Positions 1,396 to 64,000 of a stretch of DNA of 64,000 nt are shown piece after piece. A program made the translations under genes and the position numbers. The DNA is taken from IMG/VR virus record IMGVR_UViG_3300024261_002043, positions 1 to 64,000 of that record, one strand, 5' to 3'. Source of the DNA: a virus. The notes beneath the pieces are model-generated. The model was given only the letters and a program-made list of their open reading frames with translations, searched no databases and was not told the DNA's origin. How positions within the stretch are numbered: position 1 is the first letter of the stretch; each line of letters begins with the position of its first letter.

Positions 1396-3369
1396 TTAGA
1401 TAATGTCCATGCCAAGGCAAGTAACTGTTCCGTAGAAGTCGTTACGAACCATCTTCTTGCCGTAGCGAGTCATAACACCCTTACGAGGAGTAAAATCCTC
1501 AGGAGCGAAAATCGTCGGAGTGACAATGAGAGGTACATAAGGAGCATATACGTAACCAGTCTCAAGGTAGCTACCGCCCTTGAACCCAACAAGAATCTTG
1601 TTGCGTGGGAAGTAAGGGTCCTTGTAGACAGTGAAACGGTTGCTTAAGCTACCAACTGACTCTGCGCCAAGTGCCATACCACTGACCTGACCATCGCCAT
1701 CAAGGCTGTAGTTAGGCTTGTAGAGGACACTAGCTTCGAGTACGGTGGCAACATCAGGGCTGACAACTATGAAGTTCGCAGAACCACGGAGGGTCTTTCT
1801 GTGAATCTCATTGGCAACATCAATGATGGTCTCAACAAGGGTCTCATACCACTCTCGGACGGTACCGGTAAATGCCGGACCAGTTGAGAGAGATGATGTA
1901 CGTGCCTGTGCTGTACCTGTACGCTTGTTAACAAAGCTACCTGGGCGTCTATCCCAGAAGAAGTTTGTATCAGCCTGAACCAAGAGGTCATTAAGAATCT
2001 CACGATCGATTTCCAAAGCAATCTGCTCTGAAAGAATCTGAGTAAGCTCAACCTCAGCGTCAAGACTATGATAAGCATTCAGGTCCTGAGCAAGCTCTGG
2101 TGACCAACGTGCTCTTAACTTACGAGTCTGAGCGACGACTGAAACACTTTCAATCTTAATGTCAATCTCAGGAATCTCAGGAAGAGGCTGACCAGCACCA
2201 ACCTGGAAGTTGGATTCGAACGTTGGAACAACAAGAGTTGAACCATCGCTTGAGTCGAGCTGAGCGCTCTTTACCCAAGATACGTCGAAAGCGGATATGT
2301 TATGGTCAGCGACAGCGTTATCAGCATCAAGTGCGTCAATAGCAGCACCTGAAACAACCATCAATAAAGCCGTACCTGGTGCATTTGCACCCATAGGGGC
2401 AGGAGTGATCGCTCCACCAGCAGAAGCTGATGTAACAAGCATATTCAAGCGACGAACGTTGTATGTACCTGCACCACCCTGGATGGTCTTAGGAATTTCC
2501 TGTAATGCACAGTCACCAGCGCCGGCAACAACTTCAGCTGTAAGAGTTTGGGTTACATTTAAACCAAATTCCTTAACTGCTGTTAAGTCGAGGATCGATC
2601 CTGAAGAATAGTTACCTAACTTCTGAATATCAACTGTCATGAATGAGAAGACGCCGCCTTCTTCTTCAATTAAGCGAGTGATCTGGGGATCAAACTGTAG
2701 GAAACGACCATTTTGGCCACCAACACCTTGAGCACCGATACCAGCAGTGTTTGAACCACCAGCAGCTGCACGAACCTGAGTTGTACCAGTTCCAAGACGG
2801 AAGATAGTACCTGCATCATTTTCGATACCAGGAATGTTTGATGATGAGTGAACTCGTGAGTAACTTGTACCTACAAGGTCATACTGACCACCAACACCGA
2901 GTGAACCTGAACGGACACCCTTACCTGCTGGGTTGTTATAAATTGAATCACCAGCACTAAAAGTGTTGCTAGTAGCAGACTCTGCTCCACCAACGTTAGT
3001 ACCGTATGTGTAATCAAGATAGAATAACAGACCCGACGGAAGACTCATTGGCTGAATCGAGACAAGCTCGTTAGCAACAAGACCGCCGAATACTCGACGA
3101 ACGATTGGGAATGCAATATTAGTAAAGCCGCGAATATCTCCGCTTGCGGCTGAAGGGGCTAATCCACCACCACCAAGGGTGTTAGATTCACGTAGGACTT
3201 GTCCGGCCTGGTTCTCGAGCAGCGTTGCCATGTTTTCACGATGGACGCTTTCAAGACCACGTAGGAGACCGGTTCGAGCCCACTTTTCTGTAAGACGAGC
3301 GTTAGCATCGCCTTGGTGCCGTTGACGAATTCCTTCTGTCAACTGCTCAAGTGTAAACTTCTTAGACAT
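1396..3369 (-). CDS. gp23: Major capsid protein, T4 gp23-like
   Basis: This is the subunit of the head shell. The 657-residue product carries the T4 gp23 signature region near residues 85-120 (an IVRRVF helix, then LVANELVSIQPMSLPSG, then LFYLDY), matching the VRRAIPNLIAFDICGVQPM-type block in T4. The remaining fold is consistent with HK97-like capsid proteins of this family. It is about 130 residues longer than T4 gp23, mostly through a Gly/Ala/Ser-rich insertion around residues 130-240 that could form an extra surface domain. A likely maturation site is L59-R60-E61 before S62, close to the T4 gp23 cleavage after E65 in FLTE-A. The order portal, protease, scaffold, capsid supports the assignment. 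The start has a GGAG site eight or nine bases upstream, and the gene ends at a strong terminator. Its GC content is higher than that of its neighbours, as expected for a highly expressed gene. Confidence 0.96.
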   Translation of the reverse strand: MSKKFTLEQLTEGIRQRHQGDANARLTEKWARTGLLRGLESVHRENMATLLENQAGQVLRESNTLGGGGLAPSAASGDIRGFTNIAFPIVRRVFGGLVANELVSIQPMSLPSGLLFYLDYTYGTNVGGAESATSNTFSAGDSIYNNPAGKGVRSGSLGVGGQYDLVGTSYSRVHSSSNIPGIENDAGTIFRLGTGTTQVRAAAGGSNTAGIGAQGVGGQNGRFLQFDPQITRLIEEEGGVFSFMTVDIQKLGNYSSGSILDLTAVKEFGLNVTQTLTAEVVAGAGDCALQEIPKTIQGGAGTYNVRRLNMLVTSASAGGAITPAPMGANAPGTALLMVVSGAAIDALDADNAVADHNISAFDVSWVKSAQLDSSDGSTLVVPTFESNFQVGAGQPLPEIPEIDIKIESVSVVAQTRKLRARWSPELAQDLNAYHSLDAEVELTQILSEQIALEIDREILNDLLVQADTNFFWDRRPGSFVNKRTGTAQARTSSLSTGPAFTGTVREWYETLVETIIDVANEIHRKTLRGSANFIVVSPDVATVLEASVLYKPNYSLDGDGQVSGMALGAESVGSLSNRFTVYKDPYFPRNKILVGFKGGSYLETGYVYAPYVPLIVTPTIFAPEDFTPRKGVMTRYGKKMVRNDFYGTVTCLGMDII

Positions 3370-3413
3370 TTTTATGTTCTCCTTTAAAAATTATAATTAG
3401 CGTCTAGTTTCGG

Positions 3414-4877
3414 TTATTTAATACCAGCGAGTGTCGCCCATCGGTTCGTCTGCTTCGACTCATTCACTGTGGAACTACCACTGCGAGTCGGCTTTGATGA
3501 TGAACCAAGTACTCTTCTCGTGCCCTCACTTAGGGACTTCTTGTTAAGCGATTGTGTTAATCCTTCATAGACCAACTTCGCTTCACGGATTGTCTTGGCA
3601 TTATCTAGAGCCTCGACTATGGCACGCTGCTGCTTAGAACTTACACTACGATTCTGGATCAGTTTGTTCACGTATAGCAACTTTGCGTTAAAAAGATTCA
3701 TTTCTGCGAGCTGCTTCTTCAACTCTTTATTTTCTCTAACAACCTTGGAGCTGCGTGCACGGCGTCTGCGACGGCGCTCTGCGACTGGGCCAGTTGTTGC
3801 TTCAGGAGCTGATTCTACGTCAGCTACCTGGCCGAGCTCATCTGCAAGAGCATTGAGAAGATCATCTTCATCTACCTCAATAACTTCAAGCTCAACTTCT
3901 CCACCACCGAATTGATCGGCTTCGTCCTCAGCGGACTCTCTCATGGTGCGAAGTCTTTTAAGCTCCATCTTAAGCATGCGGGGATCGATTTCGAAGACTT
4001 CATCGAGCTCTTCCTCTTCTTCCTCTTCCTCTTCCTCGCCTTCCTCGTCAGCAGCTTCTTCTTCCGTATCTTCAACGGCGTCCATTGCTACCTCGATGTC
4101 TAGTGCATCGATATCGGCCTCTTCGGGCTCTTCAACACCCAAGGCCTCTAGATCCTCATCACTGAGGACTAATTCCATTTCGTCTAATTCGCCGTAACCA
4201 GCTTCAAAAAGTTGGTTGAAGATGGCTCTGCTGCGGTTTTTAGTCATGATATTCATCTCCTTAAGTGTTTCGAATAATTGAAGGCGAAGTGTTTGTCCGC
4301 CGCTCTCAGAAATAACTATTGCCTCTGAGCGTAAAGATAATGCTTCACCTATCAATTTTTGATATGACTGTTTGATTACAGCGCGCTGCTTGTTTGTAAG
4401 TGTCTTTGTATCGACACCCTCAAGCAACGCGTCCATTCTCCTAACCTTCCCCTGAAGCGTCGCAATTCTTTTAGCGAGCTTATTTTCGTTGGAAGATGTA
4501 GAGCTGTTAATTGCTTCTTTAATATCTCGTACATTTCGCTTGAGATTTTCTTTTGCCATTGTTAGGTTGACATCGCCTTTAGCATTAATTACTACATTGG
4601 CTTCAACTTCGGCTTCAATTTCATCGCCATGATTATCAGAGTCTGGCTCAACCAAATCATCTGCAACCTCTGCAGCTAGCGCTGCTGCAGGCATATCCAT
4701 AGGGATATCCAAGTCTTCTATCTCAATACCGGGGTCTTCAGATAACAACTGAGACTCAACCATGGCTTGAATTCTTGGGGTTAGGGCTTCTATAATTTTA
4801 TTCTTTGCATTCTGCTCAGCCAGCTGTTTTAGCTGCTGTGCTTCAGCAATTGCTTCTTTATAAAGTGTTGTTGACAT
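3414..4877 (-). CDS. gp22: Prohead core scaffolding protein, gp22-like
   Basis: The 487-residue, strongly acidic, helix-rich protein sits between the prohead protease and the major capsid gene, the place of gene 22 in T4-type phages. It begins with a Gln/Lys/Glu helical stretch. It contains a central run of ten consecutive Glu residues within a longer acidic tract (about residues 255-290) and a basic RRRRRRAR segment near residue 365, and ends with a Ser/Thr-rich basic tail. Scaffolds of this family fill the prohead and are degraded by the gp21-like protease. The size is almost twice that of T4 gp22 (269 residues). The assignment rests on position and composition; no conserved catalytic motif is expected. 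Confidence 0.85.
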   Translation of the reverse strand: MSTTLYKEAIAEAQQLKQLAEQNAKNKIIEALTPRIQAMVESQLLSEDPGIEIEDLDIPMDMPAAALAAEVADDLVEPDSDNHGDEIEAEVEANVVINAKGDVNLTMAKENLKRNVRDIKEAINSSTSSNENKLAKRIATLQGKVRRMDALLEGVDTKTLTNKQRAVIKQSYQKLIGEALSLRSEAIVISESGGQTLRLQLFETLKEMNIMTKNRSRAIFNQLFEAGYGELDEMELVLSDEDLEALGVEEPEEADIDALDIEVAMDAVEDTEEEAADEEGEEEEEEEEEELDEVFEIDPRMLKMELKRLRTMRESAEDEADQFGGGEVELEVIEVDEDDLLNALADELGQVADVESAPEATTGPVAERRRRRRARSSKVVRENKELKKQLAEMNLFNAKLLYVNKLIQNRSVSSKQQRAIVEALDNAKTIREAKLVYEGLTQSLNKKSLSEGTRRVLGSSSKPTRSGSSTVNESKQTNRWATLAGIK

Positions 4878-4956
4878 TAACGAACCTCACAAAATGTTGC
4901 GCGCATTTATCTCTTAAATATGATAAACAAGAGAAGATGACCTAAAACGCATAAGT

Positions 4957-5517
4957 TTATATTTCTCTTAAGTTACGAGCCAGTACCGTTCTGACTATAT
5001 TTCTTACTTTTTCTAGAGCCTCTTCTTCAGGTTCTATGTCTTCTAAATCGTTTGGAAGTATAGAGGAATGACTCCACCCTCTATACGTTCCGGTTCTATT
5101 ATATTGACCTGGTGCGATTGATTTAGGAGAATTTACCCCTCCACCAACTTGTATCCTATCTTTGTACATACCCGGGAATGGTACTAGGCTTTTACCAGAT
5201 ACTTCTCCAATGGCGATCGGGCGGTTACCGTTAGCCATCGAATCCCTATCTATTGATCTTCCGATTAAATTATCGTGGCTTTTATAAGGCGTAGATATTT
5301 TATTTTTTATTTTGTTTAGCTGATCGTCAGATAGTCCTAGCTCAATATCCTCGACGTCGATACTCTCAGGGTAAGGAAACGTCGCAGCCTTTTTACGAGG
5401 CTTGTGATATTTTTCTTTAGATAAGCCGTACCCTAAATCTTTTCTAGTATCATGAGAAAGCCCGGGTCGGTGACCCAGACTTAAAGGGTTAGACGGGTCA
5501 TATGGCCCGGTAGACAT
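4957..5517 (-). CDS. Hypothetical protein in the head gene cluster (186 aa)
   Basis: The product is a hydrophilic 186-residue protein of no recognised family. The N-terminal half is rich in Pro, Gly, His and Tyr with little predicted secondary structure. A short acidic helical stretch (about residues 50-75) and an acidic C-terminal helix (DLEDIEPEEEALEKV) complete it. The start overlaps the stop of the upstream gene in a TAATG arrangement, which implies translational coupling. The location between protease and scaffold genes suggests a minor prohead or head-completion component; this is inference only. No signal peptide or membrane segment is visible. Confidence 0.6.
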   Translation of the reverse strand: MSTGPYDPSNPLSLGHRPGLSHDTRKDLGYGLSKEKYHKPRKKAATFPYPESIDVEDIELGLSDDQLNKIKNKISTPYKSHDNLIGRSIDRDSMANGNRPIAIGEVSGKSLVPFPGMYKDRIQVGGGVNSPKSIAPGQYNRTGTYRGWSHSSILPNDLEDIEPEEEALEKVRNIVRTVLARNLREI

Positions 5518-5999
5518 TATGTGCTAGATCCCCATGCTTTACCCATAACATAATCTCCTAACGTTCCTCTTGATTGTTGTTCTGATGATGTTTTTGGTTG
5601 TAGCTGTGAACCTACACCAGAACCCCATTGAGCAGGAGGGGTTTGACCAAAACCTTCAGGTGGTTCTGATTGATCTGCTGGATTTATTGAGCCAGGCCCG
5701 GGAGAGGTTGGATTAGGAACATAAGGTGAACCAGGTAGTCCGCCTCCGCCTGATTTTACTTCTTTAAGATCTGGTGAATCTTTATAATCACGAGAAAATG
5801 TTCCGAATGTATGACCACCGTCATTAACGGTGCCATCAAGAACGCCTTCTTGAAATTGCTTGGCAATTGATTCTGCCGTCATTTCGCCGGCATGAATAGG
5901 AGACGCTGGAAATGAAGATGCTAACGTAGCTGAGTCTGACGATCCCATATTTCTAGTGCTAGCTACTGGTTCTACTGTTGTCTGTTTGTGTGTGGGCAT
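5517..5999 (-). CDS. Hypothetical Pro/Gly/Ser-rich protein in the head gene cluster (160 aa)
   Basis: This 160-residue protein is of unknown family. It is rich in Gly, Pro, Ser and Gln, particularly between residues 80 and 145, and looks largely disordered. It has a good ribosome binding site (TTTAGGAG) before the ATG, and its stop codon shares a base with the start of the next gene. Two consecutive low-complexity products between scaffold and protease resemble the small prohead-core proteins (gp67 and gp68 positions) of T4-type phages, but I see no sequence match to them. Its role is unassigned. Confidence 0.6.
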   Translation of the reverse strand: MPTHKQTTVEPVASTRNMGSSDSATLASSFPASPIHAGEMTAESIAKQFQEGVLDGTVNDGGHTFGTFSRDYKDSPDLKEVKSGGGGLPGSPYVPNPTSPGPGSINPADQSEPPEGFGQTPPAQWGSGVGSQLQPKTSSEQQSRGTLGDYVMGKAWGSST

Positions 6000-6026
6000 T
6001 TTAGTCTCCTAAAGATTTAATAATGT

Positions 6027-6305
6027 TTATTTTGTTTTTGATTCAGAAATCTTCTTAACAAGGCGCTTCTTTGCAGCTTGCACTTTTGCGTACTTTTTCT
6101 TAAGAATGCTTTCCTGAATCTTTAACGCAGCAATGAAGTCGATGTCTTTTTCAAGAGCTTCAGCTTGTTCATCAGCGTCAACTTCTTCTGCCTTTACCTT
6201 TTCAGAGTCCTCTTTCCCTTGCTCAAGAGTCTCCATAATTTTTCTTTTCTCTTCCATTACAAGCTTCTTAAGAAGAGTTGGTGTTAATTTAATATTCTTA
6301 GCCAT
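6027..6305 (-). CDS. Small charged helical protein, possible prohead-core component (92 aa)
   Basis: The 92-residue protein is almost entirely helical and highly charged: an N-terminal amphipathic stretch (LLKKLVMEEKRKIMETL), a Glu/Asp-rich centre and a Lys-rich C-terminus (KKYAKVQAAKKRLVKKI). Small charged helical proteins next to the prohead protease are typical prohead-core proteins (gp67/gp68 in T4), which is the best guess by position and composition. A TCAGGAGG site precedes the ATG. The gene is first behind the AATACTTAC motif at 6336-6344, so it may lead a transcript that continues through scaffold and capsid. Confidence 0.6.
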   Translation of the reverse strand: MAKNIKLTPTLLKKLVMEEKRKIMETLEQGKEDSEKVKAEEVDADEQAEALEKDIDFIAALKIQESILKKKYAKVQAAKKRLVKKISESKTK

Positions 6306-6335
6306 GTCAATATCCTCCTGACCTGTGATCTAATT

Positions 6336-6344
6336 GTAAGTATT
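6336..6344 (-). promoter_or_regulatory. AATACTTAC motif, candidate late promoter for scaffold and capsid transcript
   Basis: The minus strand reads CGAATACTTACAATT here, 30 bases before the ATG at 6305, with a clear TCAGGAGG site in between. The exact 9-mer also occurs in front of the portal gene and in front of the gene at 31530-32057, and I found no copy inside a gene. The distance fits a -10 element with a short untranslated leader. Recognition by the gp55-like sigma factor is inferred. Confidence 0.6.
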
Positions 6345-6367
6345 CGGTAACTTTGGATTCTTTCTAA

Positions 6368-6799
6368 TTAATCATCAAATGCTAGTGCGGCCCACTTATC
6401 AGCTGACTCTCCGAACAAGTCAGATGGATCACTTTGCGACGCAACTAAAGATGCTTTATCTGCACCTACAGTTGACTTTCCTCGTTCAGCAGCCGCTTGC
6501 TCAACCAATGTTGTTGCAGCAGTATCTTTAAAGATTGCAGCCATAATAGGATCAGAGGTTAACCCACTAACATCTAAATCTTTTTTCTTTGGCTGTCTTG
6601 CTTTTTCAGTAGTTCTTCCGATTAATATCTTATCTAAGGCCGGGCGCCTTGAAGTTTGTCTTTTTTTATTAGCAGGAGCTTTACGTGTTGAACGAGCTTC
6701 ACTAAGTCTTTCAGACGTTTCGTCGGAAGCCTCTAGCAAAATTTCAAACAAGCATTCTTTCACTAAAGACTTTAGATTATTTCTAGTCATCTTTGCCAT
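6368..6799 (-). CDS. Hypothetical head-cluster protein with possible prohead protease site (143 aa)
   Basis: The 143-residue product has an N-terminal amphipathic helix (LKSLVKECLFEILLEA), then a basic disordered stretch (residues 35-75) and an Ala/Ser/Asp-rich C-terminus. The EILLE-A sequence near residue 23 matches the L-x-E/(A or G) pattern cut by gp21-type proteases, so this may be a core protein whose N-terminal delivery peptide is removed during maturation. The family is not recognised. It begins 11 bases after the gene at 6811, with AAAGGG upstream of the ATG. Confidence 0.6.
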   Translation of the reverse strand: MAKMTRNNLKSLVKECLFEILLEASDETSERLSEARSTRKAPANKKRQTSRRPALDKILIGRTTEKARQPKKKDLDVSGLTSDPIMAAIFKDTAATTLVEQAAAERGKSTVGADKASLVASQSDPSDLFGESADKWAALAFDD

Positions 6800-6810
6800 T
6801 CTACAACCCT

Positions 6811-7170
6811 TTATGCTATGGTACCCATAAGAACATATGAAGGTATGACTATCTCGTCACCCCTAATAGGTACATTGGTCAATTCACAAACAACGCTCAT
6901 TTCTTTGGCATCTATTGAAAAACCTTTGCACTTTATCTCAAAGCGATGGGTGCCTTTATTCAGTTTTATCGTCCGATCAACCGGAGCAGCTGATTCATCG
7001 GTAAATGTGATTACAGCCCCGTCAGCGAGAATGTTAAATGTCAATGCTCTCGACACATACTTCAGCGTTATTACACGGGCGGAGGATGCATTCGGTACAA
7101 TAAACGCGTTACCGCTTTTTTGATACTCACCAACGTGATGCATACCGGGATCTGGCCAGCTTGAACTCAT
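6811..7170 (-). CDS. Small beta-rich virion protein candidate (119 aa)
   Basis: The product is a 119-residue, beta-strand-rich protein starting MSSSWPDPGMHHVGEYQ. Starts of this type (a Trp-x-Asp-Pro-Gly stretch, then HVGEYQxSG) occur in small structural proteins of aquatic phages, and a decoration or vertex role would fit, but that is from memory of the pattern only. The frame is open upstream to a GTG at 7185. The ATG at 7170 is preferred because it overlaps the protease stop as ATGA and has a GGAG site seven bases upstream. It lies between the protease and small head proteins, so a virion or prohead location is likely. Confidence 0.65.
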   Translation of the reverse strand: MSSSWPDPGMHHVGEYQKSGNAFIVPNASSARVITLKYVSRALTFNILADGAVITFTDESAAPVDRTIKLNKGTHRFEIKCKGFSIDAKEMSVVCELTNVPIRGDEIVIPSYVLMGTIA

Positions 7171-7787
7171 TTCTTTTCTCCCCACCCGATTACATCATTA
7201 AATGCTCTGTGGATTCTATCGGACTTATTAAAGACTTTATTAAGATCGTTTCGTCTTACTTCAACGCCTTCCTTCATCATAAATGCGCCGGGCGTTGATG
7301 GTTCTGATACGAAGTCCCAACAAATAAGTTGAAAATCATCTTGCACTACATCAATATCACCCTTGCGTTTTGTTGAGCCAACGCCGCGGGATGAAATGCC
7401 AAGAGTCACACCGGACTCCACTAGGCTTTGCAGAATTTTTCCAGAAGGTGTGTTTAGCAGTTCGACAACACCGTAGCAAACATCACCGTCCATATAGGCT
7501 TCCCTTATTATATGAGAAGCGTTCTTTAGCTCTACAACAGAACTATCAGGATGATCACACTCGCCTAAGGCTCGGCTTTCAGCTATAAACTTTTGATAGT
7601 TTCTAACTTCTCTTTCCAAAATAACCTTAGGATAAACACGACCATTCTGGTTTAGGGTATCGGCTTTTTGAAGCACACCTTTCATAACCATCTTTCCGTC
7701 GTTGGCTTTTCTTTGTTCTTCGATTACATCTTTATCATATTCGAACGGTGTCCATTCTGTCAAGAGCTTTAAGTTATTCATCTCCAC
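7167..7787 (-). CDS. gp21: Prohead core protease, T4 gp21-like
   Basis: This serine protease matures the prohead by cutting scaffold, core and capsid proteins after L-x-E. The 206-residue product has the family landmarks in order: an N-Q-N-G-R-V-Y-P block (residues 46-53), the catalytic His in GECDHP (H79), and the nucleophile Ser in LGISSRG (S132 or S133). A conserved Asp/Phe segment follows in the C-terminal third (DDFQLICWDFVSEPS). Length matches T4 gp21 (212). It overlaps the upstream gene by 14 bases and the next by an ATGA, so translation is coupled. Its position between portal and scaffold is the T4 order. Confidence 0.93.
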   Translation of the reverse strand: MEMNNLKLLTEWTPFEYDKDVIEEQRKANDGKMVMKGVLQKADTLNQNGRVYPKVILEREVRNYQKFIAESRALGECDHPDSSVVELKNASHIIREAYMDGDVCYGVVELLNTPSGKILQSLVESGVTLGISSRGVGSTKRKGDIDVVQDDFQLICWDFVSEPSTPGAFMMKEGVEVRRNDLNKVFNKSDRIHRAFNDVIGWGEKK

Positions 7788-10594: not shown

Positions 10595-12187
10595 TTAAAG
10601 CAACCACTTAAAATCTACAGAGCCAGATATAGCGGGATGAGATTCATCCAGTTCTATCGGCATACCTTTTCTAGCTAACTGCTGCATATTATTCACATAT
10701 GACGGATGCAGGTTTCTTCTTTTTTCACGCTTATTTATCCCAAACGCTGCTAACATCGCTTGGTTTAGATCCACTGTATTTTTGGCAACAGAAACGTTTG
10801 AGTCGTACAACCCTATTCCTATTGCTAATGACATTACGAGATCATCATTTTTTCCACTTTGGGCCTGCGCTTTTGAGCCTGACCATATAAATGTCTTCAT
10901 TTCATCAGCAAGCCTAGAAGAGTATATAGAAACTTTGTCATTCCTTATCACTTCTTCTAGTTTAGTTAAAATCTTCGCCCTACTAGCACCCTGGGTAGAG
11001 AATCCGCCTTTTCCTATTGAACCGTCACCGTACATCGCGTTGAATTTATCTTTTTCTTTCGCAAAGTATATATTCTTATAGCCTAGTTCGTTAAGCTTCA
11101 TTAATACAGCATATCCGTATGTATTACTCTCAGGACAAAGTTCTGCATCTCCGTACCTTTTGCCCGCCTCAGCGAGCAAAATAGCTAATTGATCTGGTGG
11201 CACTTTGCCTTTAAACTCAGCAACCACCTCAGATTCTGTCTTATCTATGACATGGAATGTAGAGTAATCTTTGCCGTCGCCTCTTGCTACATCAGCAGAA
11301 ATAACATACTCGTGATCACTTAAATGATACTTCCATACCCACACATTGTTTTCAGGACCCCAGCGCTCGATTGGAGTACGAATATTCATTCTAAGCTTCT
11401 GTATATCTTCCTTTGCTAAGAAGGTATCACCAGAAGCTTGAAAGTCGCATAACAGCTCTTGCGCAATTTGCTGCTTATTTAAATTCTTTGCTTCTTTTTC
11501 AAACCAGGTATCATTTCTTTCGGGATGCACGTCCCAAGGCAGTTTTATTGGGTTGAATTCGTTGTCTTGCTGCTCAGCGCCATGATAGATGTCATAGTAC
11601 TGCCCTCCAGTGCCGTTTGGGGTCGATACCAGTATTGCACGTCCACCAGTCGATAGAGTAGGATACAGTCCCTTCCATAGCTCATCAAAGTTTCTGATGA
11701 AAGCAGCTTCATCGACGATCAATAAGCTCAGCGCCTCAGAGCGACCCGCATCTTCGGAGGTGGGGACAGCTTTTATCATAGAACCGTTTGAGAACTCTAT
11801 TGCTTGAGTATTCTTTGTTGTTACTTCAGTGATCCACAACCACTTTGGGATGCCTGTTAGCGCAATCTTAACTTTTTTAATAAAGTTTTGAGCAACAGCA
11901 AGTTTAGTCGCTATAACGAGAATGCTCTTATCTTTTCGAAATAAAGCCATCCATACAGCGTACGCAGCAGATAGCGTGGATAAGCCTAACTGTCTAGACT
12001 TTACAACCACATTAAATCTGTGATCATTAAATGCCTGTAAACACTCGTCTTGAAACGGGAATGTATGAAACTCTATTCGGCCCTTAAGGGGATGCTGGAT
12101 CTGTACATATCTGTTTATAAAATATGATGGATCCTTTCCACATTTCACAATTTCGTTTATTTGCTTTTGCTTTGACAGTGGAGGCAT
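10595..12187 (-). CDS. gp17: Terminase large subunit, gp17-like
   Basis: This is the packaging motor ATPase and headful nuclease that docks on the portal. The 530-residue product has a Walker A variant SRQLGLST (residues 64-71), Walker B LLIVDEAAF with D159-E160, a coupling SxPNGTGG motif near residue 190, and a RNase H-like nuclease domain beginning with ISADVARGDGKDYS near residue 297, with further acidic residues in DAELCPES. Replacement of the usual lysine by leucine in the P-loop is common in terminases with the RQLGxS form. T4 gp17 has 610 residues. The gene starts 9 bases after the upstream hypothetical gene and directly precedes the portal gene. Confidence 0.95.
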   Translation of the reverse strand: MPPLSKQKQINEIVKCGKDPSYFINRYVQIQHPLKGRIEFHTFPFQDECLQAFNDHRFNVVVKSRQLGLSTLSAAYAVWMALFRKDKSILVIATKLAVAQNFIKKVKIALTGIPKWLWITEVTTKNTQAIEFSNGSMIKAVPTSEDAGRSEALSLLIVDEAAFIRNFDELWKGLYPTLSTGGRAILVSTPNGTGGQYYDIYHGAEQQDNEFNPIKLPWDVHPERNDTWFEKEAKNLNKQQIAQELLCDFQASGDTFLAKEDIQKLRMNIRTPIERWGPENNVWVWKYHLSDHEYVISADVARGDGKDYSTFHVIDKTESEVVAEFKGKVPPDQLAILLAEAGKRYGDAELCPESNTYGYAVLMKLNELGYKNIYFAKEKDKFNAMYGDGSIGKGGFSTQGASRAKILTKLEEVIRNDKVSIYSSRLADEMKTFIWSGSKAQAQSGKNDDLVMSLAIGIGLYDSNVSVAKNTVDLNQAMLAAFGINKREKRRNLHPSYVNNMQQLARKGMPIELDESHPAISGSVDFKWLL

Positions 12188-12196
12188 AATTTAGCG

Positions 12197-12565
12197 CTAG
12201 CTAACCTGTAATTTTATTCGAGCTCGAAAATAAGCAATTTTTCTTGGAGAATTTGATGTCGCAGAAATTAGCTCAACATCATCATCTCTAGACAGCTCTT
12301 TTGTAGAAAGCGCTCTATCTATAGACTCCTTAAAGTCCTTCTTTATCCTCTTCAAGCCGTCTGTAAAAATTTGGTTAGCTTGCTCCCTTTGTGTTTCAAC
12401 TTGTAAGCTAAGCGCTCTTTCACCAGCAAAATGAACGATCGTAGTGTATTCTAGCTCTAATACGTCTCCCTGGATCTTACTGGTCATTTTTCTTTCTTTA
12501 CTTGAGTATCCCCAAGATGTATTTGTCGCTTGCCCTAAGGCTCTTATTTCTTCGATATTAAGCAT
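12197..12565 (-). CDS. Hypothetical protein upstream of terminase (122 aa)
   Basis: The 122-residue product has mixed beta and helical character, with a helical segment from about residue 50 to 85 (QVETQREQANQIFTDGL) followed by a C-terminal strand pair. It begins in an 8-base overlap with the upstream zinc-cluster gene and ends 9 bases before the large terminase gene. In T4 the small terminase gp16 precedes gp17, so a packaging role is a fair guess. However, I see no helix-turn-helix or other gp16-like feature, and the assignment is left open. Confidence 0.6.
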   Translation of the reverse strand: MLNIEEIRALGQATNTSWGYSSKERKMTSKIQGDVLELEYTTIVHFAGERALSLQVETQREQANQIFTDGLKRIKKDFKESIDRALSTKELSRDDDVELISATSNSPRKIAYFRARIKLQVS

Positions 12566-12806
12566 TTATGTTCTCCATTTTTTGAAAATCTTGAATTTTT
12601 TTACGGTAATCTTCAAGCTCTACTCTAGTAGGTAAATATCCTTCATCGCGGTTTAGATTTCTTAATGGCTCTAAAAATGTAATCCAGCAATCCATACAAC
12701 AGCCAGATAAAAAGTATTGTGAGCAATCATTAGCGTCCCTGATCATCAAGTTGCACATAGGACAATCAAGTGGAACGTATGAGCTATTGCTATGCGTATT
12801 CGACAT
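12558..12806 (-). CDS. Small four-cysteine zinc-ribbon-like protein (82 aa)
   Basis: The 82-residue product has two cysteine pairs, C15-P-M-C18 and C37-M-D-C40, plus C28 and C36 between them, a spacing typical of a zinc ribbon or knuckle. A charged helical tail follows (EDYRKKIQDFQKMEN). Its start overlaps the end of the Mre11-Rad50 fusion gene by 17 bases and its end overlaps the next gene, so it is translated with the recombination gene. A role as a small nucleic-acid-binding or protein-bridging factor is plausible but not shown. Confidence 0.65.
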   Translation of the reverse strand: MSNTHSNSSYVPLDCPMCNLMIRDANDCSQYFLSGCCMDCWITFLEPLRNLNRDEGYLPTRVELEDYRKKIQDFQKMENINA

Positions 12807-15800
12807 TTGAGTCCTTACCTTTCTTTCTGATATCTAGAACATTATCAACTATATCTTTTACAGCATCAACGTGCGAAATGATTAGTATATTCGCAAAATA
12901 TTTCTTAAGTGAAGTCAATAATCTAGAACATGCTTCTATGCTCTTGTCGTCAAGGGCGCCAAAACCTTCATCTATAATAAGCACGTCACTTCTAGGAGCA
13001 TTACATACATTTATTAGTGCAACCCTTAAGGCTAATGATGAAATCATCTTCTCCATCCCTGAGCCGCACTCTATGATTCTTCTAGAGTCTCCATAATCTA
13101 TATAGATATCCATGTTGTTAGAATCAGGGTCAGCTTCTAAAATTAAATCAAAATTTACGACGCCTTGAAGTATTTTTTGTAGCTCATTATTGATTTGAGG
13201 AAGCTGTAAAGATAAAATTGTTAAAGGAATTCCTTTCTTATCAACAGATTGTATTAATGTATTGTAGGTTTCCCACCTAGATTTAACAGCACCAAATCTC
13301 TCATGTTCCTCGGTAAGCGTTAATTCTTTTTGCTTCGAAACGCTAATTCCTTCTGTCAAGTATAGCCTCTCTGCATCTAATTCGCTTATCCTAACCTCGA
13401 TAGATTTTAGATGTTTTCTCATATTAATTACAGCTTTATCTTTTTCTTCGTCTATAGAGCGTAGCCTCATTTCTCTAAGCAAGTTTTTTCCTTGCTCTAT
13501 TTTTGTAGAAATGCCTTGGTATTCACCCTCTAACTCTTTCATTTGAAGACGCATCTCTGAGTGATTTAGTCTTGACTCTTGCTCTTTGCTTATTATATCT
13601 TCATACTTTTTAAGTCTGCTAGCTAAACCTTTTTCGATTAAAGATTGTAGCGTAGAGCTTATCGACTTCAACTCTTTTTTAGTCGTCGATATTACCTTCT
13701 TTTGATCATCTACTTGCAAAGCACTTTTGCTAGCGTCTTTCACATATTGACATGTCGGTAGATGTTCAAAGCAATCACAAGGCTTAAGCTTTTCAGCTAA
13801 TTTTTTCTTGCTTTCAAGACTCTGGACTGCTAACTCAAGTTTGGCGTCAGTTAGCTCTTGCTGTGACATAAGACTTTTTTGTAGATCAATTTCCTCTTTT
13901 AACTCGCCAATAGGAAATTGTGACCTTATAGATTCTACCTTTTCTATCTTTCTGCTAATTGACTCTATGTCTTCAGATAGTTTTACGATACGCTTCTTTA
14001 AAGAGACTCTATCGGTCTCACTAACAGACAATATTTTGACTTGTTCATTCAGTTGGTCCTTTGTGTACATGTCAGATGAAGGAAGAGCTGCCAACTTTAT
14101 TCTTAGGTCATCCCTTTTCTTTTTTAAGCCTTCTAGCTCTGATTCAACTTCCTGTTTTTCAACCAGCAAGCCTTCTTTTAATTCACACTGCTCTGTTATT
14201 AGTTCTTTCCAGTTTCTATCAGGTGCTGTTCTCATTTCACCGCGGAGCTCAGAAACTTCATTTTTTGCAATCTTTAGCATATCGTCAAATATTTGAAGAT
14301 CCAAAAACCTTGTTAGTACAGCCTTACGTTGCGTTGAGCCTTCCCTGATAAATGCATTCATACTACCTTGTGCAGCAAATGAAGTCATCATAAAGTCTTC
14401 TATAGTTCCGACAAGTTCTCTTAAAGTTTTTTCCGTTTCTCTTCTCTGCTCTCCAGTTGCATCTTCAAGTGGCTCGCCAGCGTCGTCTATCTTAAATAGG
14501 TTTAAGTTCGTTGGTGCGGAGGTAACACCTTTTCTGTTGACCTTCTTTAGTGTTTGTCTTTCAGCTCTATACATTTCTCCAGCTACGGAAAAATCAACAG
14601 TCGCTTTGCAATAATTCTTTCTATTGTTTACAATATGCATATTCTTTAACGCGCCACGATCAGAGGTGTTAAATAGCGCATACGATATTGTTCCAGGAAT
14701 TGAGGATTTTCCTACACGGTTTTTGCCAAATATTCCTGTTATGCCATGGAGTGAATCAAAATTTACGACATTACCTTCACCATATGCGAATGTATTATCA
14801 AACGATAGCTTTCTTAATCTCCACTGATGTGACTTGGTACTTACTTGTTGCACACACCTACTAAAGACGTCCTTATGCAAAAATCTTAGCGACTCTCTTT
14901 CCTCATCACTTAACTCTAACTTAGACACGTACTCAGACATTAAGGCATCTTGTTGCTTAAAACTTCTTAGATCATTTCTAGATATTTTTCCTATACTTGT
15001 CGTAATTTCCGCATCAGATCCATTAAAGGAATTTTGCTCATTTTTTGAAACAACTTCGTATGCGTCAAAATTATCTTTTAAAGATCTTTGTAATTGCTTA
15101 AAGTCAACTTGAGTCATCCCAGAATGAACAACCCTAAACCTTGACCCTGACCACTCTTCCGGTAGCTGAGCTAACGTATCTACAACGTCCCCTGTCCACT
15201 TTATAGTTCGAAAAGCATGCGGATTATGCAGAGGTACAAAATCAACAGTGAAGTTGTCACGATCCTCAATTTCCCAAAACAAGAAACCTTTCTCTACATC
15301 TTCACCATAATTTTGTTGAATTGTTGATCCAGGATAAGCAATTTTTGGAGTAAAAAACTGGCGTTTATGTATATCACCTAACATTGTATAGTCGAAATCT
15401 TTAAAAAAGTCAACCTTTACACTGTCACCGTTAATTTCCCAATCTTGGTCAGTTAATGAACCGTTAACTGGTCCATGAAAAGCAGCTATGCTAACGTTGT
15501 CGCCTGATGGCTTTAAGTCAGACCATACCTTGGAATCGAAGCAGCAAAAAACGCCCCATTCAAAACCGGGAACGCCAGTAGGATATATTCCCGTTCCTTT
15601 CATCAATTGTATTTTGTCGTTATTTAACGAACGTACTATAGGTGTGATTGCGTCAAGTCTGTCTTCGTTAAACATTAGACCGTCATGATTACCTAATATT
15701 ACATGCACAGGAGCGATCTCTGATAATGATGTAAACCACCATCTAAGAATTTCAATAAGCTCAGGACTGATGCCTTGAGTCTTTGAGTGTACAATGTCTC

Positions 15801-15933
15801 CGCCTAGAAAAATAACATCAGGCTTAAGCCTTCTAAGCTCTTTGTACGATTGCTCAAAAACATGACGATATTCATCATGTCTACTAAGACCTCTAAAATG
15901 TATATCTGCGAAGTGTGCGCACTTAAAACTCAT
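12790..15933 (-). CDS. Fused Mre11/SbcD nuclease and Rad50/SbcC ATPase (gp47-gp46-like) in one chain
   Basis: The 1047-residue protein joins two enzymes that are normally separate. Residues 1 to about 240 are a calcineurin-like phosphoesterase with all metal motifs: D10-x-H12, GGD46, GNH83D84, H153 and GDIH189. After a linker (about 240-370), an SMC-type ATPase begins with Walker A GKNRVGKSS (403-411). It has long coiled-coil arms (about 550-900) and a cysteine cluster at the arm tip (C719, C721, C728). The C-terminal lobe has signature SGMEKM (958), Walker B LIIDEGFGALDD (D988, E989) and an H-loop histidine (H1021). In T4 the complex gp46/gp47 resects DNA ends for recombination-dependent replication, the expected role here. 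No frame break or stop separates the halves. It begins 16 bases after the primase gene. Confidence 0.95.
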   Translation of the reverse strand: MSFKCAHFADIHFRGLSRHDEYRHVFEQSYKELRRLKPDVIFLGGDIVHSKTQGISPELIEILRWWFTSLSEIAPVHVILGNHDGLMFNEDRLDAITPIVRSLNNDKIQLMKGTGIYPTGVPGFEWGVFCCFDSKVWSDLKPSGDNVSIAAFHGPVNGSLTDQDWEINGDSVKVDFFKDFDYTMLGDIHKRQFFTPKIAYPGSTIQQNYGEDVEKGFLFWEIEDRDNFTVDFVPLHNPHAFRTIKWTGDVVDTLAQLPEEWSGSRFRVVHSGMTQVDFKQLQRSLKDNFDAYEVVSKNEQNSFNGSDAEITTSIGKISRNDLRSFKQQDALMSEYVSKLELSDEERESLRFLHKDVFSRCVQQVSTKSHQWRLRKLSFDNTFAYGEGNVVNFDSLHGITGIFGKNRVGKSSIPGTISYALFNTSDRGALKNMHIVNNRKNYCKATVDFSVAGEMYRAERQTLKKVNRKGVTSAPTNLNLFKIDDAGEPLEDATGEQRRETEKTLRELVGTIEDFMMTSFAAQGSMNAFIREGSTQRKAVLTRFLDLQIFDDMLKIAKNEVSELRGEMRTAPDRNWKELITEQCELKEGLLVEKQEVESELEGLKKKRDDLRIKLAALPSSDMYTKDQLNEQVKILSVSETDRVSLKKRIVKLSEDIESISRKIEKVESIRSQFPIGELKEEIDLQKSLMSQQELTDAKLELAVQSLESKKKLAEKLKPCDCFEHLPTCQYVKDASKSALQVDDQKKVISTTKKELKSISSTLQSLIEKGLASRLKKYEDIISKEQESRLNHSEMRLQMKELEGEYQGISTKIEQGKNLLREMRLRSIDEEKDKAVINMRKHLKSIEVRISELDAERLYLTEGISVSKQKELTLTEEHERFGAVKSRWETYNTLIQSVDKKGIPLTILSLQLPQINNELQKILQGVVNFDLILEADPDSNNMDIYIDYGDSRRIIECGSGMEKMISSLALRVALINVCNAPRSDVLIIDEGFGALDDKSIEACSRLLTSLKKYFANILIISHVDAVKDIVDNVLDIRKKGKDSNVEYA

Positions 15934-15949
15934 CTACTTTACTCCAATG

Positions 15950-16921
15950 TTATAATAGAGACCCAGACTTAATTGTACTAATTAAAGACTTAAGTCTGTC
16001 ATTTCGTGACCATGACTGAGCCGTTATCAGCGCGGCTTTGAAATCGCTTATAGACATCTCACCGACATCCTCAAAAAGTGATGTGTCTAATACTCTCACT
16101 GGTATGTCATAAGATGCAAGAAGGCGTGCGATATTTTGGGTCTTTTTATTTGCGTCGTTATCTAATGCAAGAACAACAGGCGTAGAATTTATTACAATCT
16201 TTCTAAACAGCTCGTGCTTTTCGCTTAACGTACTACCAAGCAAACACGTTGCATTTTGATTACACCTGAATAAATCAAAAGGGCCTTCCACCAGCGTTAG
16301 CTCTTCGCCCCAGTCAATATTAATTTCATTAAAGATAATATCAGCCCTCTTTACCTTGGGATTCATATACTTCATTTTAAAGTCATCAATTGATCTAGCT
16401 GTGTAGTAATTTAAGTTTCCGCTATCATCAAAAGATGGTATAATAATACGCCGGCGGTATCTTCCGCTTGAAACCGCACCTACTTTAAAGTACCACGTTC
16501 TCGACTCGCTTAAAAGTCTAGACTCTATGTACTTTTTGCATGCCTTAAGATCCGGATCTGCACCGTTATCTAAAGTTGATAGTAAGCGAAAGCCTTCAGG
16601 CAGCTCAAGGATCTCATCAGGTATTTCATCTTTTTCTTTTATTGTCTTTTGAAATATCTGTGAAGCTTCTGTATAAAACTTAGGAGCGTTGTATCTAAAA
16701 AAGCGAGATAACCCTTTGCCTCTCGTACCGCAAACCCAACAATGATAAAACTCATTGTCGACACGAAGACATAACTTCTTTTTATCTTTTCTTGAATACG
16801 TTGAGCAAGACTTATTAACACAGTTTATAGCGATATTAATTCCATCTCTATCTAAAGAGAAATAAGGAAACGCGCGCTGAATTAACTTTATTCTTTTCTT
16901 TATTAATTGATCTTCATTCAT
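15950..16921 (-). CDS. DNA primase with zinc finger and TOPRIM domain
   Basis: It makes RNA primers for lagging-strand synthesis. The 323-residue product has an N-terminal four-cysteine zinc module (C34, C39, C61, C64, the last pair in CWVC). A DnaG-type core follows with RRRIIIPSFDDSGNL (about 156-170) and YTARSI, and then TOPRIM acidic residues E212 (LVEGPFD) and D254/D256 (LALDNDAN). The fold order is that of DnaG-type phage primases such as T4 gp61 (342 residues). The start overlaps the RuvC-like gene by 8 bases, and the fused Mre11-Rad50 gene follows. There is no helicase domain, so a separate helicase must be encoded outside this window. Confidence 0.9.
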   Translation of the reverse strand: MNEDQLIKKRIKLIQRAFPYFSLDRDGINIAINCVNKSCSTYSRKDKKKLCLRVDNEFYHCWVCGTRGKGLSRFFRYNAPKFYTEASQIFQKTIKEKDEIPDEILELPEGFRLLSTLDNGADPDLKACKKYIESRLLSESRTWYFKVGAVSSGRYRRRIIIPSFDDSGNLNYYTARSIDDFKMKYMNPKVKRADIIFNEINIDWGEELTLVEGPFDLFRCNQNATCLLGSTLSEKHELFRKIVINSTPVVLALDNDANKKTQNIARLLASYDIPVRVLDTSLFEDVGEMSISDFKAALITAQSWSRNDRLKSLISTIKSGSLL

Positions 16922-17462
16922 TCTTAAAGCTGGCCGCCGCTACAATATATGCATCTGCTATATCATAACACGAATCAGCCGGGATTACAAGACCTTTCCT
17001 GATACCTGATTTAAGCGTTCTCATCGGCCATTCATATTCAGGCAATTTTAGCTTTACGAAATTAAGGACCTGCTCTTTTGTTGAAGTGTCAGATTTCCTG
17101 TCAACCTTTAGACCAACTTTTTTTCTTGCAGAGTTGACATTGACAAAACTTGGCTCAAGCTCGAAAACCTCGTTACATAAAAATGTCACTATACCATTGA
17201 ACCTTGCAAGGGTAACAATCGTTTTTGCGCTAGAAAAACCAGGTCGAAATGCCTGTAAGTTTTCCTCTATGCACACTGACGTTATATTGAGTTTTTTCTT
17301 AATATCACGTAACTCTTTTCTCACTTTATAGGCTTTTTCGAAGATATTTTTCTCTTTTGATAACTCAACAACAGAGGCATCTTGTAACGTGCCTTTTATT
17401 GTATCAAGTACACACCACCCAACGTTGGACGTTGATATATCTAGTCCTAAAACAAGATCCAA
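16914..17462 (-). CDS. RuvC-like Holliday junction resolvase
   Basis: The 182-residue protein has an RNase H fold with RuvC catalytic residues: D8 in GLDISTSNVGW, E66 and E67 in SVCIEEN, and D167/D170 in YDIADAYIVA. Enzymes of this type cut four-way DNA junctions. In phages they resolve recombination intermediates or trim branches before packaging, the job done by the unrelated endonuclease VII in T4. The start is a TTG at 17462 with AAGGAG six bases upstream; no ATG lies near. It opens the replication and recombination island (RuvC-like, primase, Mre11-Rad50). Confidence 0.88.
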   Translation of the reverse strand: MDLVLGLDISTSNVGWCVLDTIKGTLQDASVVELSKEKNIFEKAYKVRKELRDIKKKLNITSVCIEENLQAFRPGFSSAKTIVTLARFNGIVTFLCNEVFELEPSFVNVNSARKKVGLKVDRKSDTSTKEQVLNFVKLKLPEYEWPMRTLKSGIRKGLVIPADSCYDIADAYIVAAASFKNE

Positions 17463-57433: not shown

Positions 57434-57750
57434 GACATTTCCAGAGGATCCTCTACGGTTCCTTGTTTCATATCAGATGTTAATACATTCGATATATCTA
57501 CTATAGCATCTCTGCATGACTGCATATCTCTATGAATCTTCTTAATTTCAGCAGAGTCAGAGAATAAAGGTATCTCAAGAATCTTATCCATCGACTGTAT
57601 TCTTTCGTCCATCAATTCTAGCGAATCCTCTAACGAGTCTTCGACATCAAGTACTGTAATCCCTAGTCTATATAATATCTTAGCGCAATACGCGGTGGTG
57701 CATGCAAAAAATACACATAAAATTAACAGCAATATCTCAAGAACAGTCAA
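57430..57750 (-). CDS. Small membrane-anchored protein (106 aa)
   Basis: The 106-residue product has an N-terminal hydrophobic segment (about residues 2-20, VLEILLLILCVFFACTTA) suitable for a membrane anchor, then a charged helical region (DVEDSLEDSLELMDERIQSM). Its TTG start at 57750 overlaps the upstream glycosyltransferase gene by 14 bases, with AGGTG upstream. Its stop overlaps the sigma factor start. Type and function are unknown; with one transmembrane helix it could be an inner-membrane factor, for example in superinfection exclusion or lysis control. Confidence 0.6.
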   Translation of the reverse strand: MTVLEILLLILCVFFACTTAYCAKILYRLGITVLDVEDSLEDSLELMDERIQSMDKILEIPLFSDSAEIKKIHRDMQSCRDAIVDISNVLTSDMKQGTVEDPLEMS

Positions 57751-58915
57751 TTAAGTCACCTAGCGCTTCATCGTATTTTTTAGCTATAGACTTCATAGAG
57801 TAGTTATTGGCCATTTTTTCCATAGATTTTTTAGCCCACTCTCTCGGAACATCAGGGGACTTTCGTAGTTTTTTTACCCTAGACTTAAAGTGGTTTTCGG
57901 AAGGTTGCGCCCACTTAGCACCAGAGCACCAGATCCTATCGTCAACCATTTCATCAGGAATCGCCTCTATCTTATAGTCGACGTCTAGAAATCTTACATC
58001 TTTCATAAAGTCCATATGACCAGAGTGTTTTGTTGCTATAACAGGTAGTCCATTGACTGTAGCATCTAAAATTGGTAGCCCCCAGCCTTCCCCACGGGTT
58101 GCGGCACAGAGCGCATTTACTTTTTCATGAGACATCAAGGAAGAAATTTCTTCACGATCCATTAAACCGTGTAGAACATGAAATCTTGGATAGGGTCCAT
58201 CTCTAACAACAGACAGTATATTCTCAACCGTCCTTGTTGTCACTCTTCTGTCTTGACACGTCAAGCGGCCCATATTCGTCTTTAATATAATACCGACGTC
58301 TTTATCATTCTTAAATTCTTCGCATAACCACTTAATCATATTCATGGTATTTTTTCTGTCTGTCATTGCATGACGACCGGTAATTTGACCAAAAATCAAA
58401 AAATTAAAAGAAGTAGAAATTTTATCTAACCTGTCAGAAAATTCCTTTGAACTAGGTGTAGATTTTAGGCTGCATGTATAACCTTCCGGTACATTAAAGA
58501 TCTTTGATCTATCAAATCCACCGTTGATAAAGGACTCTTTAGAGTATGTACTAGGAACGATTAATCTGTCCATATTTCTAGCAGCGGTAATCCAATGGGG
58601 ATGACATCTATCTGCTTCTATACCGGCGGTTATACCTACGTTTTTAACGGCAAGGTTTGGGTCCCACTCGTCAGGTAGCTGAATCTGTAATGATATGTCT
58701 GCTTTCTTGCCTTCGGGTAGTGGGCCTGAATTTTGCATGATGTCTCCAATTAGACCATCCTCTGCATCCGGATCTACATAATACGTGCACATACCCCATG
58801 GGACTATCTGTGCCCTCACATCCCAGCCCTTAGACTTTGCCCAGCGCCAAACTTGTCTAGTATGTGAACCATATCCTGTTACACTTAAAAGTGGGCCTCT
58901 AACGATAGCGATCAT
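57737..58915 (-). CDS. Glycosyltransferase, GT-B fold (GT4-like), 392 aa
   Basis: The 392-residue product resembles family-4 glycosyltransferases. An N-terminal loop with GPLLSVTGYGSHTRQV is followed by the C-terminal donor-binding pattern RGEGWGLPILDATVNGLPVI, then ATKHSGHMDFM (about residues 270-300), with the E-x7-E-type spacing partly conserved. It transfers a sugar from a nucleotide donor; the donor and acceptor are unknown. Together with the upstream glycosyltransferase and the GDP-sugar genes it could modify a virion protein, phage DNA base or host surface glycan. Confidence 0.85.
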   Translation of the reverse strand: MIAIVRGPLLSVTGYGSHTRQVWRWAKSKGWDVRAQIVPWGMCTYYVDPDAEDGLIGDIMQNSGPLPEGKKADISLQIQLPDEWDPNLAVKNVGITAGIEADRCHPHWITAARNMDRLIVPSTYSKESFINGGFDRSKIFNVPEGYTCSLKSTPSSKEFSDRLDKISTSFNFLIFGQITGRHAMTDRKNTMNMIKWLCEEFKNDKDVGIILKTNMGRLTCQDRRVTTRTVENILSVVRDGPYPRFHVLHGLMDREEISSLMSHEKVNALCAATRGEGWGLPILDATVNGLPVIATKHSGHMDFMKDVRFLDVDYKIEAIPDEMVDDRIWCSGAKWAQPSENHFKSRVKKLRKSPDVPREWAKKSMEKMANNYSMKSIAKKYDEALGDLIDCS

Positions 58916-58918
58916 TTA

Positions 58919-60172: not shown

Positions 60173-60255
60173 TTCCAGCACTACTCCAAACGATTAAAAA
60201 GCTTATGTGTGTAATCATATCTTATAACAACAGGAAGTATATTTATCTGCTGTAT

Positions 60256-61140: not shown

Positions 61141-61148
61141 ACTATCTA

Positions 61149-61177
61149 ATCATAGTAGGAAAATGGTAGGTTTACAA
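61149..61177 (-). promoter_or_regulatory. Sigma-70-like promoter in front of the PD-(D/E)XK nuclease
   Basis: On the minus strand TTGTAA (61172-61177) and TATGAT (61149-61154) are spaced by 17 bases. The -10 box ends only 8 bases before the ATG, so a transcript from here would have almost no leader; no Shine-Dalgarno sequence is present either. It is therefore either a leaderless start or a chance match. Confidence 0.4.
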
Positions 61178-61183
61178 GATAAT

Positions 61184-62155: not shown

Positions 62156-62190
62156 AATCACTCCTGATTCATATTACGAATAAGCAATTC

Positions 62191-62219
62191 ATTATATAAA
62201 AGCTTATCCAGATTTTCAA
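62191..62219 (-). promoter_or_regulatory. Sigma-70-like promoter upstream of gmd
   Basis: On the minus strand TTGAAA (62214-62219) and TATAAT (62191-62196) are spaced by exactly 17 bases, close to the bacterial consensus, and end 35 bases before the ATG, with AGGAG in the leader. The -35 box overlaps the stop of the upstream gene. It would let host RNA polymerase express gmd and the genes after it early. Confidence 0.7.
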
Positions 62220-63076: not shown

Positions 63077-63091
63077 TGTTTAAATCCTATA

Positions 63092-63868: not shown

Positions 63869-63869
63869 G

Positions 63870-64000
63870 CTAGTATCCTCTGATTTCTGGATAATTTTCC
63901 AAGAACCAGTCACAGGTCTTTTTTAGCCCTTCTCTTAATGGTGTGTATTGGTTTTGAGACCATCCAGAGTCTATTAAGTTTTTATTAGAGCTTGGCTTTC
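63870..64000 (-). CDS. fcl: GDP-L-fucose synthase, C-terminal fragment (window edge)
   Basis: The 42 codons at the right edge read on the minus strand end in a TAG stop (63870-63872). The last part, LREGLKKTCDWFLENYPEIRG, matches the C-terminal helix of GDP-L-fucose synthase (WcaG/Fcl; pattern L-x-x-GLxxT-x-x-WFLEN), preceded by a GW turn (DSGWS). The enzyme makes GDP-L-fucose from the product of GMD. The gene continues beyond the window, so the catalytic part is unseen. The nearby gmd supports the identity. Confidence 0.75.
   Translation of the reverse strand, partial: KPSSNKNLIDSGWSQNQYTPLREGLKKTCDWFLENYPEIRGY

Follow-up and report, generated by a model that had tools for sequence, protein, structure and literature searches.

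A single-chain Mre11-Rad50 (SbcD-SbcC) gene in a phage lineage, with re-split relatives and two hook alleles

We describe a gene that joins an SbcD/Mre11 nuclease to an SbcC/Rad50 ATPase in one stretch of DNA from a marine phage, hereafter the window (positions 1-64,000 of the 110,588-base IMG/VR virus record IMGVR_UViG_3300024261_002043). Its product is very probably a phage Mre11-Rad50 (MR) DNA-end-processing enzyme, made as a single chain and acting as an ordinary M2R2 homodimer. The protein belongs to a known kind, the Mre11/Rad50 (SbcD/SbcC) fusion proteins. Two computational observations are new: the apparent re-splitting of the fused gene in a sister lineage, and the occurrence of its predicted hook in two alleles.

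Frame, domain order and linker of the fused chain

On the minus strand of the window, positions 12790-15933 form one open frame of 1047 codons (ATG at 15933, stop at 12790-12792). A previous sequence-only reading had described a continuous frame joining the two enzymes, with which the Pfam and PHROG matches agree. Pfam Metallophos (PF00149) matches residues 4-190 above its cut-off (E-value 1.2e-12); the C-terminal part matches SMC_N (3e-7) and SbcC_Walker_B (2.7e-4), both below the curated cut-offs. PHROG 100 (SbcD) spans residues 1-340 (2e-23) and PHROG 77 (SbcC) residues 275-1046 (2e-51).

Relatives were taken from two sources: 26 loci found by scanning IMG/VR proteins, and the best 80 of 585 encoding stretches found by an alignment scan. 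A single open frame of at least 1030 codons is present in 91 of the 96 relatives fetched (39-100% identity), and at the other five loci (L022, L025, L028, L073 and L106) the matches reach the contig end. Since the frame is unbroken in 91 relatives, chance or a sequencing slip is refuted, and the stop or frameshift between nuclease and ATPase that the sequence-only reading had named as decisive did not appear. That two genes were joined artificially during assembly or sequencing has a negligible probability: single-record cases do occur, as in the record of Listeria phage LMTA-57, which has a 1009-amino-acid fused frame where A511 has two genes, but the same fusion recurs in 91 contigs and in isolated phages.

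All the residues previously singled out (D10, H12, D46, N82-H83-D84, H153, H189, Walker A, S958, D988-E989 and H1021) lie where they had been placed, and those that are catalytic do not vary among 63 aligned relatives. The phosphoesterase motif set had also been called complete. This holds for the named residues, and D-x-H, GD, GNHD and H are all invariant, but GDIH replaces GHxH as the last motif; its Asp187, equally invariant, occupies the position of the first His (His206 of P. furiosus). Judged from its sequence, the protein therefore does not carry the complete canonical GHxH motif of Mre11. The ATPase motifs form a complete set (Walker A, Q-loop, signature, Walker B, D-loop and H-loop), with the signature SGME, not SGGE. 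The heads are accordingly described as Rad50-type by sequence. At the apex of the coiled coil no CxxC zinc hook was found, and orthodox Rad50 membership is not claimed; we assign the protein only to the fused Mre11/Rad50 family, for which the hook is no criterion.

A linker of about 130 residues had been thought to replace the capping and Rad50-binding region. The structural model and the alignments contradict this: residues 240-369 correspond to a capping domain and a helix-loop-helix. In the AlphaFold2 model (mean predicted local distance difference test score, pLDDT, 82.5; predicted template modelling score, pTM, 0.44) residues 241-298 fold into a capping-type domain after the nuclease and residues 319-361 into a helix-loop-helix, with a low-confidence loop (300-314) between them; a linker (about 362-369) then leads to the ATPase N-lobe, the coiled coil and the C-lobe. 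Foldseek matched the nuclease and capping domain of S. aureus SbcD (7dog, root-mean-square deviation 4.0) as well as Mre11-Rad50 head complexes; its full-length matches, in a structural library of viral proteins, were fused proteins of giant viruses and phages, the best being giant-virus proteins (Tupanvirus, E-value 2e-61). When PDB sequences were searched with a profile, E. coli SbcC (6s6v_C, 4.9e-28) aligned from position 371 onwards, and residues 210-399 of the E. coli SbcD chain, through its C-terminus, with positions 173-363; archaeal Rad50 and T. maritima Mre11 (3.5e-13) were also matched. When the chains are aligned together, SbcD of T4, cyanophage S-SKS1, A511, 010DV004, Ceto and E. 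coli terminates at residue 367-370 of the window protein and that of ESa1 at residue 356, and the SbcC chains of split relatives start at residue 368-371. According to the model, both the capping and the Rad50-binding regions are kept, with a true linker of some 8 residues.

It had further been suggested that the fusion sets a 1:1 ratio and a fixed geometry and constrains opening of the complex. The 1:1 ratio in cis is kept here as a proposal. In T. maritima, however, the C-terminus of Mre11 lies about 28 Angstrom from the N-terminus of Rad50 (Yoshida, Claverie and Ogata 2011, PMC3175470), so that a short linker is compatible with the normal geometry of the complex, which weakens the idea of a constraint on opening.

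Proposed function and relation to known fusions

We propose that two copies of the fused chain would form M2R2, with the two nuclease domains dimerising, the two ATPase heads closing upon ATP and the coiled coils meeting at a zinc-binding apex; ATP turnover would then open the head and give DNA access to the nuclease. As the helix-loop-helix directly precedes the Rad50 start, the linker would hold each nuclease on its own ATPase arm, setting the 1:1 ratio without altering the known geometry. Most relatives share a conserved gene order (tail protein, RuvC-like resolvase, primase, MR, cysteine-rich open reading frame (ORF), 122-amino-acid ORF, terminase, portal). Together with the primase, the resolvase and the terminase, the enzyme might serve recombination-dependent replication and the preparation of DNA for packaging, like T4 gp46/47. 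The fusion, motifs, domain order and neighbourhood are read directly from sequence; the homodimer, the metal chemistry at Asp187, the biochemical activity and the role are what we infer.

Several points weigh against this reading. Asp187, the SGME signature and the non-CxxC hook depart from the canonical enzyme, whose activity is here predicted from sequence and model. The pTM of 0.44, which refers to the whole model, leaves the placement of nuclease, heads and coiled coil relative to each other unsupported. No second SbcC (PHROG 77) or Metallophos gene was found in the 110.6-kb record beyond the one match of each to the fused gene, but this record may be incomplete and a separate second copy may lie outside it.

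The same departures (Asp187 for His206, the signature and the changed hook) would suit an enzyme that has moved away from recombination, e.g. to host DNA degradation or anti-defence with altered metal use, and T4 gp46/47 is annotated as also active in host DNA degradation. We regard this as unlikely: no variation is seen in the remaining metal ligands or in the ATPase motifs, and the gene sits with a primase and a resolvase, although the two roles are not exclusive. Still less probable is that the fusion exists at the level of the frame only, with an internal start or proteolytic cleavage around residue 370 yielding two working proteins. The chains of T4, A511 and E. coli end and start exactly there, and the sister lineage makes its chain in two pieces, though divided at another place. 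However, the internal start that had been named as a possible refutation was not seen: none of the 70 sequences scanned (four lacking an anchor) has a Shine-Dalgarno-like site before any ATG or GTG in the 45 codons that precede the Rad50 start, as against 36 of 70 with such a site at the native start, and no internal ATG is conserved.

The arrangement had been presented as a surprise, yet fusions have been known since 2011, when Yoshida et al. (PMC3175470) reported them in Mimivirus (R555) and its relatives, eukaryotes, bacteria, plasmids and one Bacillus phage; the carriers include Bacillus phage 0305phi8-36, a C. kluyveri plasmid and a Deferribacter megaplasmid. The window protein resembles these fusions in its domain order, in a region of capping and helix-loop-helix length (kept in most of them), in the short linker, in the Asp at the His206 position (reported for R555) and in the adjoining primase (reported for marine phage-like homologues). 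It differs in being shorter than R555 (1047 versus 1351 amino acids) and in the hook of its lineage (C-x6-C or C-x-C-x2-H-x3-C).

The search for other fused homologues that had been recommended yielded, besides the 91 unbroken relatives and giant-virus proteins, several isolated phages: Microcystis phage Mel-JY01 (1066 amino acids), Tenacibaculum phages PTm1 and pT24, Sphingomonas phage PAU (gp288) and Chryseobacterium phage MA9V-1. Their proteins, annotated only as AAA-domain, DNA-repair, metallo-phosphoesterase or unnamed proteins, likewise consist of one chain with the nuclease before the ATPase, but share only about 23-29% identity with the window protein where this was measured and have canonical CxxC hooks; the chains of PTm1, pT24, PAU and MA9V-1 are also longer. 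Mel-JY01 is additionally similar in its upstream primase and T4-type terminase. The SGME signature recurs in Mel-JY01, PTm1, LR756501, LR756508 and pT24, with small deviations in MA9V-1 (GGME) and PAU (SGMQ).

T4 gp47/gp46 and the SbcD/SbcC of Herelleviridae (Listeria phage A511) provide both activities, and the A511 pair also lies near a primase; unlike the single gene of the window, they are encoded by two genes and have GHxH, a CPTC hook and the signature SEGE (T4 gp46) or SAGE (A511). E. coli SbcCD and cellular Mre11-Rad50 share the phosphoesterase, capping domain and helix-loop-helix, and an ABC-ATPase with a coiled coil, but consist of two chains with a longer coiled coil and the signature SGGE (E. 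coli SbcC). A plasmid search for close fused homologues returned only C-terminal matches to SMC-like proteins of Curtobacterium. A supposed split SbcC/SbcD pair beside the primase of Flavobacterium phage immuto was rejected, as the genes found there code for a PD-(D/E)XK exonuclease and for proteins that match neither SbcC nor SbcD.

Trees were built from 16 fused and 7 split sequences. This sampling is narrow: the fused forms were found through similarity to the window, bacterial and giant-virus fusions were left out, and E. coli is the only cellular sequence. A single branch separates the fused phage forms from E. coli and the split phage forms, with support of 100/98 (whole protein), 95/96 (nuclease part) and 92/90 (ATPase part). 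This is compatible with, though not proof of, one origin among these phage fusions, whereas Yoshida et al. inferred recurrent fusion. The annotated SbcD-SbcC frame of LMTA-57 (L119, 1738-4767; KJ591605.1), a relative of A511, might have fused recently and independently, or might stem from an error in sequencing.

Re-split relatives and hook alleles

A search with the hook pattern brought in loci whose chain is cut within the nuclease (phosphoesterase) domain, between GDIHK and YPGS. An alignment scan with the N-terminal piece gave 80 loci, including near-duplicates and second fetches of the same contig; 52 were fused, 20 split, 6 cut by a contig end, 1 of intermediate length and 1 unclassified. 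The N-terminal piece ends in a conserved tail (e.g. REVELEIDEADLSNHPGAEVIG), the C-terminal piece starts with, e.g., MSKRIRIRTKKPW, and in several pairs stop and start overlap as ATGA or GTGA. In L184 the N-terminal piece occupies 1456-2100 and the C-terminal piece 2100-4715. The tail has a pLDDT of 31-46 in a model built from four sequences only.

At locus L256 the two pieces are separated by an intact 306-codon endonuclease-like ORF with zinc-finger-like cysteines and weak matches, below cut-off, to Vsr (E-value 3.7e-4) and DUF559 (1.8e-3). In L254 just the two ends of such an ORF are left, as a 50-codon ORF (88.8% DNA identity to L256 over 240 bases and 85.5% over 242 bases), and in L257 only its 3' end. 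LR756508, from another part of the tree, has a different endonuclease-like ORF at the equivalent site, with a TnsA-like N domain (5.8e-6, above cut-off). A group I intron as the cause of the LR756508 split was rejected (no Rfam intron match at E-values up to 1), as was an intein origin of the split tails, in which inspection revealed no Cys or His-Asn junction signature. On a tree built without these columns the split state needs 7 changes, at least 6 of them forced, so that invasion and loss, or exchange, has happened repeatedly; fused L274 lies near split L254 (path about 0.05). In L252 the C-terminal piece (about 4648-7270) contains extra stop codons and has Phe for one hook cysteine, and in L251 (about 4648-7270) it was not found as one frame; these copies are possibly decaying, recoded or affected by sequence errors.

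Homing endonucleases are known to have made genes-in-pieces, such as Aeh1 nrdA/mobE and phage 25 gene 43 (reviewed in PMC2988022). Similarly, in the sister lineage a conserved phage gene is interrupted by a free-standing endonuclease-like ORF and stays in pieces once this ORF has been lost; the target, however, is a fused Mre11-Rad50 gene cut in its nuclease domain, in relatives and not in the window itself.

The hook exists in two forms, neither of which is CxxC and which are scattered across the tree: PC-x6-C (mostly VPC-x6-C) in 57 of the 63 relatives, and PC-x-C-x2-H-x3-C, in one case with an extra residue, in the other six, i.e. the window (C719, C721, H724 and C728), L008, L023, L026, L040 and L049. 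When the coiled-coil columns are left out of the tree, 6 changes are required to account for the latter type, of which at least 5 are forced. The window protein and that of L026 are about 20% identical in the flanking coil and 83% identical over residues 705-734. At the DNA level, hooks of this type are 57-72% identical to one another, with lower values for L049, and any exchange would thus be old; convergence under constraint is an alternative compatible with these sequences. The window hook offers four possible zinc ligands in one chain, and might bind zinc without a partner.

We tentatively suggest, as a single proposal that may well prove wrong, that the fused chain is a target of both gene splitting and the exchange of parts. 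Homing-endonuclease-like genes would have inserted inside the nuclease fold and later disappeared, leaving behind a stable two-piece MR, the nuclease being shared by a protein of about 220 residues and one composed of the nuclease remnant plus Rad50. The apex would be an exchangeable two-allele cassette that may set which arms pair, and the alleles could then keep co-infecting phages or the host from forming mixed complexes. With its natural series of fused, endonuclease-invaded, remnant and stable two-piece forms, the lineage allows tests of what becomes of a nuclease domain once it is split; the natural swaps of hooks among close relatives likewise allow tests of the pairing specificity of hooks. 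The fused chain itself is a compact one-gene MR, of use for structural and single-molecule work on Mre11/Rad50 motion.

Feature coordinates and other parts of the window

Coordinates of the fused gene, its parts and its neighbours in the window, and loci of the re-split relatives
Feature	Residues	Position or loci	Strand	Basis
Fused SbcD/Mre11 - SbcC/Rad50 gene	1-1047	12790..15933	-	Pfam, PHROG; unbroken in 91 relatives
Calcineurin-like phosphoesterase (Mre11/SbcD nuclease) domain	1-235	15229..15933	-	Pfam PF00149, invariant columns, model
Nuclease-domain key residues	D10, H12, D46, N82, H83, H153, D187, H189	within 15229..15933	-	invariant columns
G-D-I-H	186-189	15367..15378	-	alignment with T4, A511, E. 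coli
Capping-type domain	236-299	15037..15228	-	AlphaFold2 secondary structure, Foldseek match 7dog
Low-confidence loop joining capping domain and helix-loop-helix	300-314	14992..15036	-	pLDDT <50
Helix-loop-helix (Rad50-binding region of Mre11/SbcD)	315-361	14851..14991	-	model helices 325-337, 343-361
Inter-domain linker, about 8 residues	362-369	14827..14850	-	model; chain ends/starts of split relatives
N-terminal ABC-ATPase lobe (Walker A, Q-loop)	370-560	14254..14826	-	Pfam, PHROG, PDB profile search, model
Walker A GKNRVGKS	403-410	14704..14727	-	G408, K409, S410, S411 invariant
Antiparallel coiled coil	561-897	13243..14253	-	long helices in model
Hook apex CDCFEHLPTC	719-728	13750..13779	-	C-x-C-x2-H-x3-C variant, not CxxC
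C-terminal ABC-ATPase lobe (signature, Walker B, D-loop, H-loop)	898-1047	12793..13242	-	Pfam, PHROG, PDB profile search, model
ABC signature SGMEKM	958-963	13045..13062	-	sequence alignments
RuvC-like Holliday junction resolvase		16914..17462	-	PHROG 159; synteny
DnaG-like phage primase, directly upstream of fused gene		15950..16921	-	PHROG 47, E 1.5e-33; synteny
Cysteine-rich ORF, 82 amino acids		12558..12806	-	conserved; start overlaps fused-gene end by 17 bases
ORF of 122 amino acids, function unassigned, between cysteine-rich ORF and terminase		12197..12565	-	conserved neighbour
Terminase large subunit, T4 gp17 type		10595..12187	-	PHROG 2; 41.6% identity to Mel-JY01
Re-split MR loci		L246-L261, L267, L270, L309, L319; also L136, L137, L151, L184, L189; L032		conserved tails, often stop-start overlaps

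The cysteine-rich ORF, which has no Pfam or PHROG match, is a possible zinc-binding partner. The contig of L105 (NHDW01000006.1, 306 kb), binned as a Methylococcaceae genome, carries the RuvC-primase-MR-terminase-portal block and is therefore probably a phage contig in a bacterial bin.

Elsewhere in the window, the adjacent ORFs at 303-743 and 762-1217 (146 and 151 amino acids), with near-identical N-termini (MPSIKVTPTKGLFQ), apparently arose by tandem duplication within the block of virion genes. A long run of ORFs that by eye resemble glycosyltransferases, NDP-sugar epimerases/dehydratases and methyltransferases lies between virion genes (57737-63913, and 827-11050 of L034), which suggests glycan synthesis or modification.

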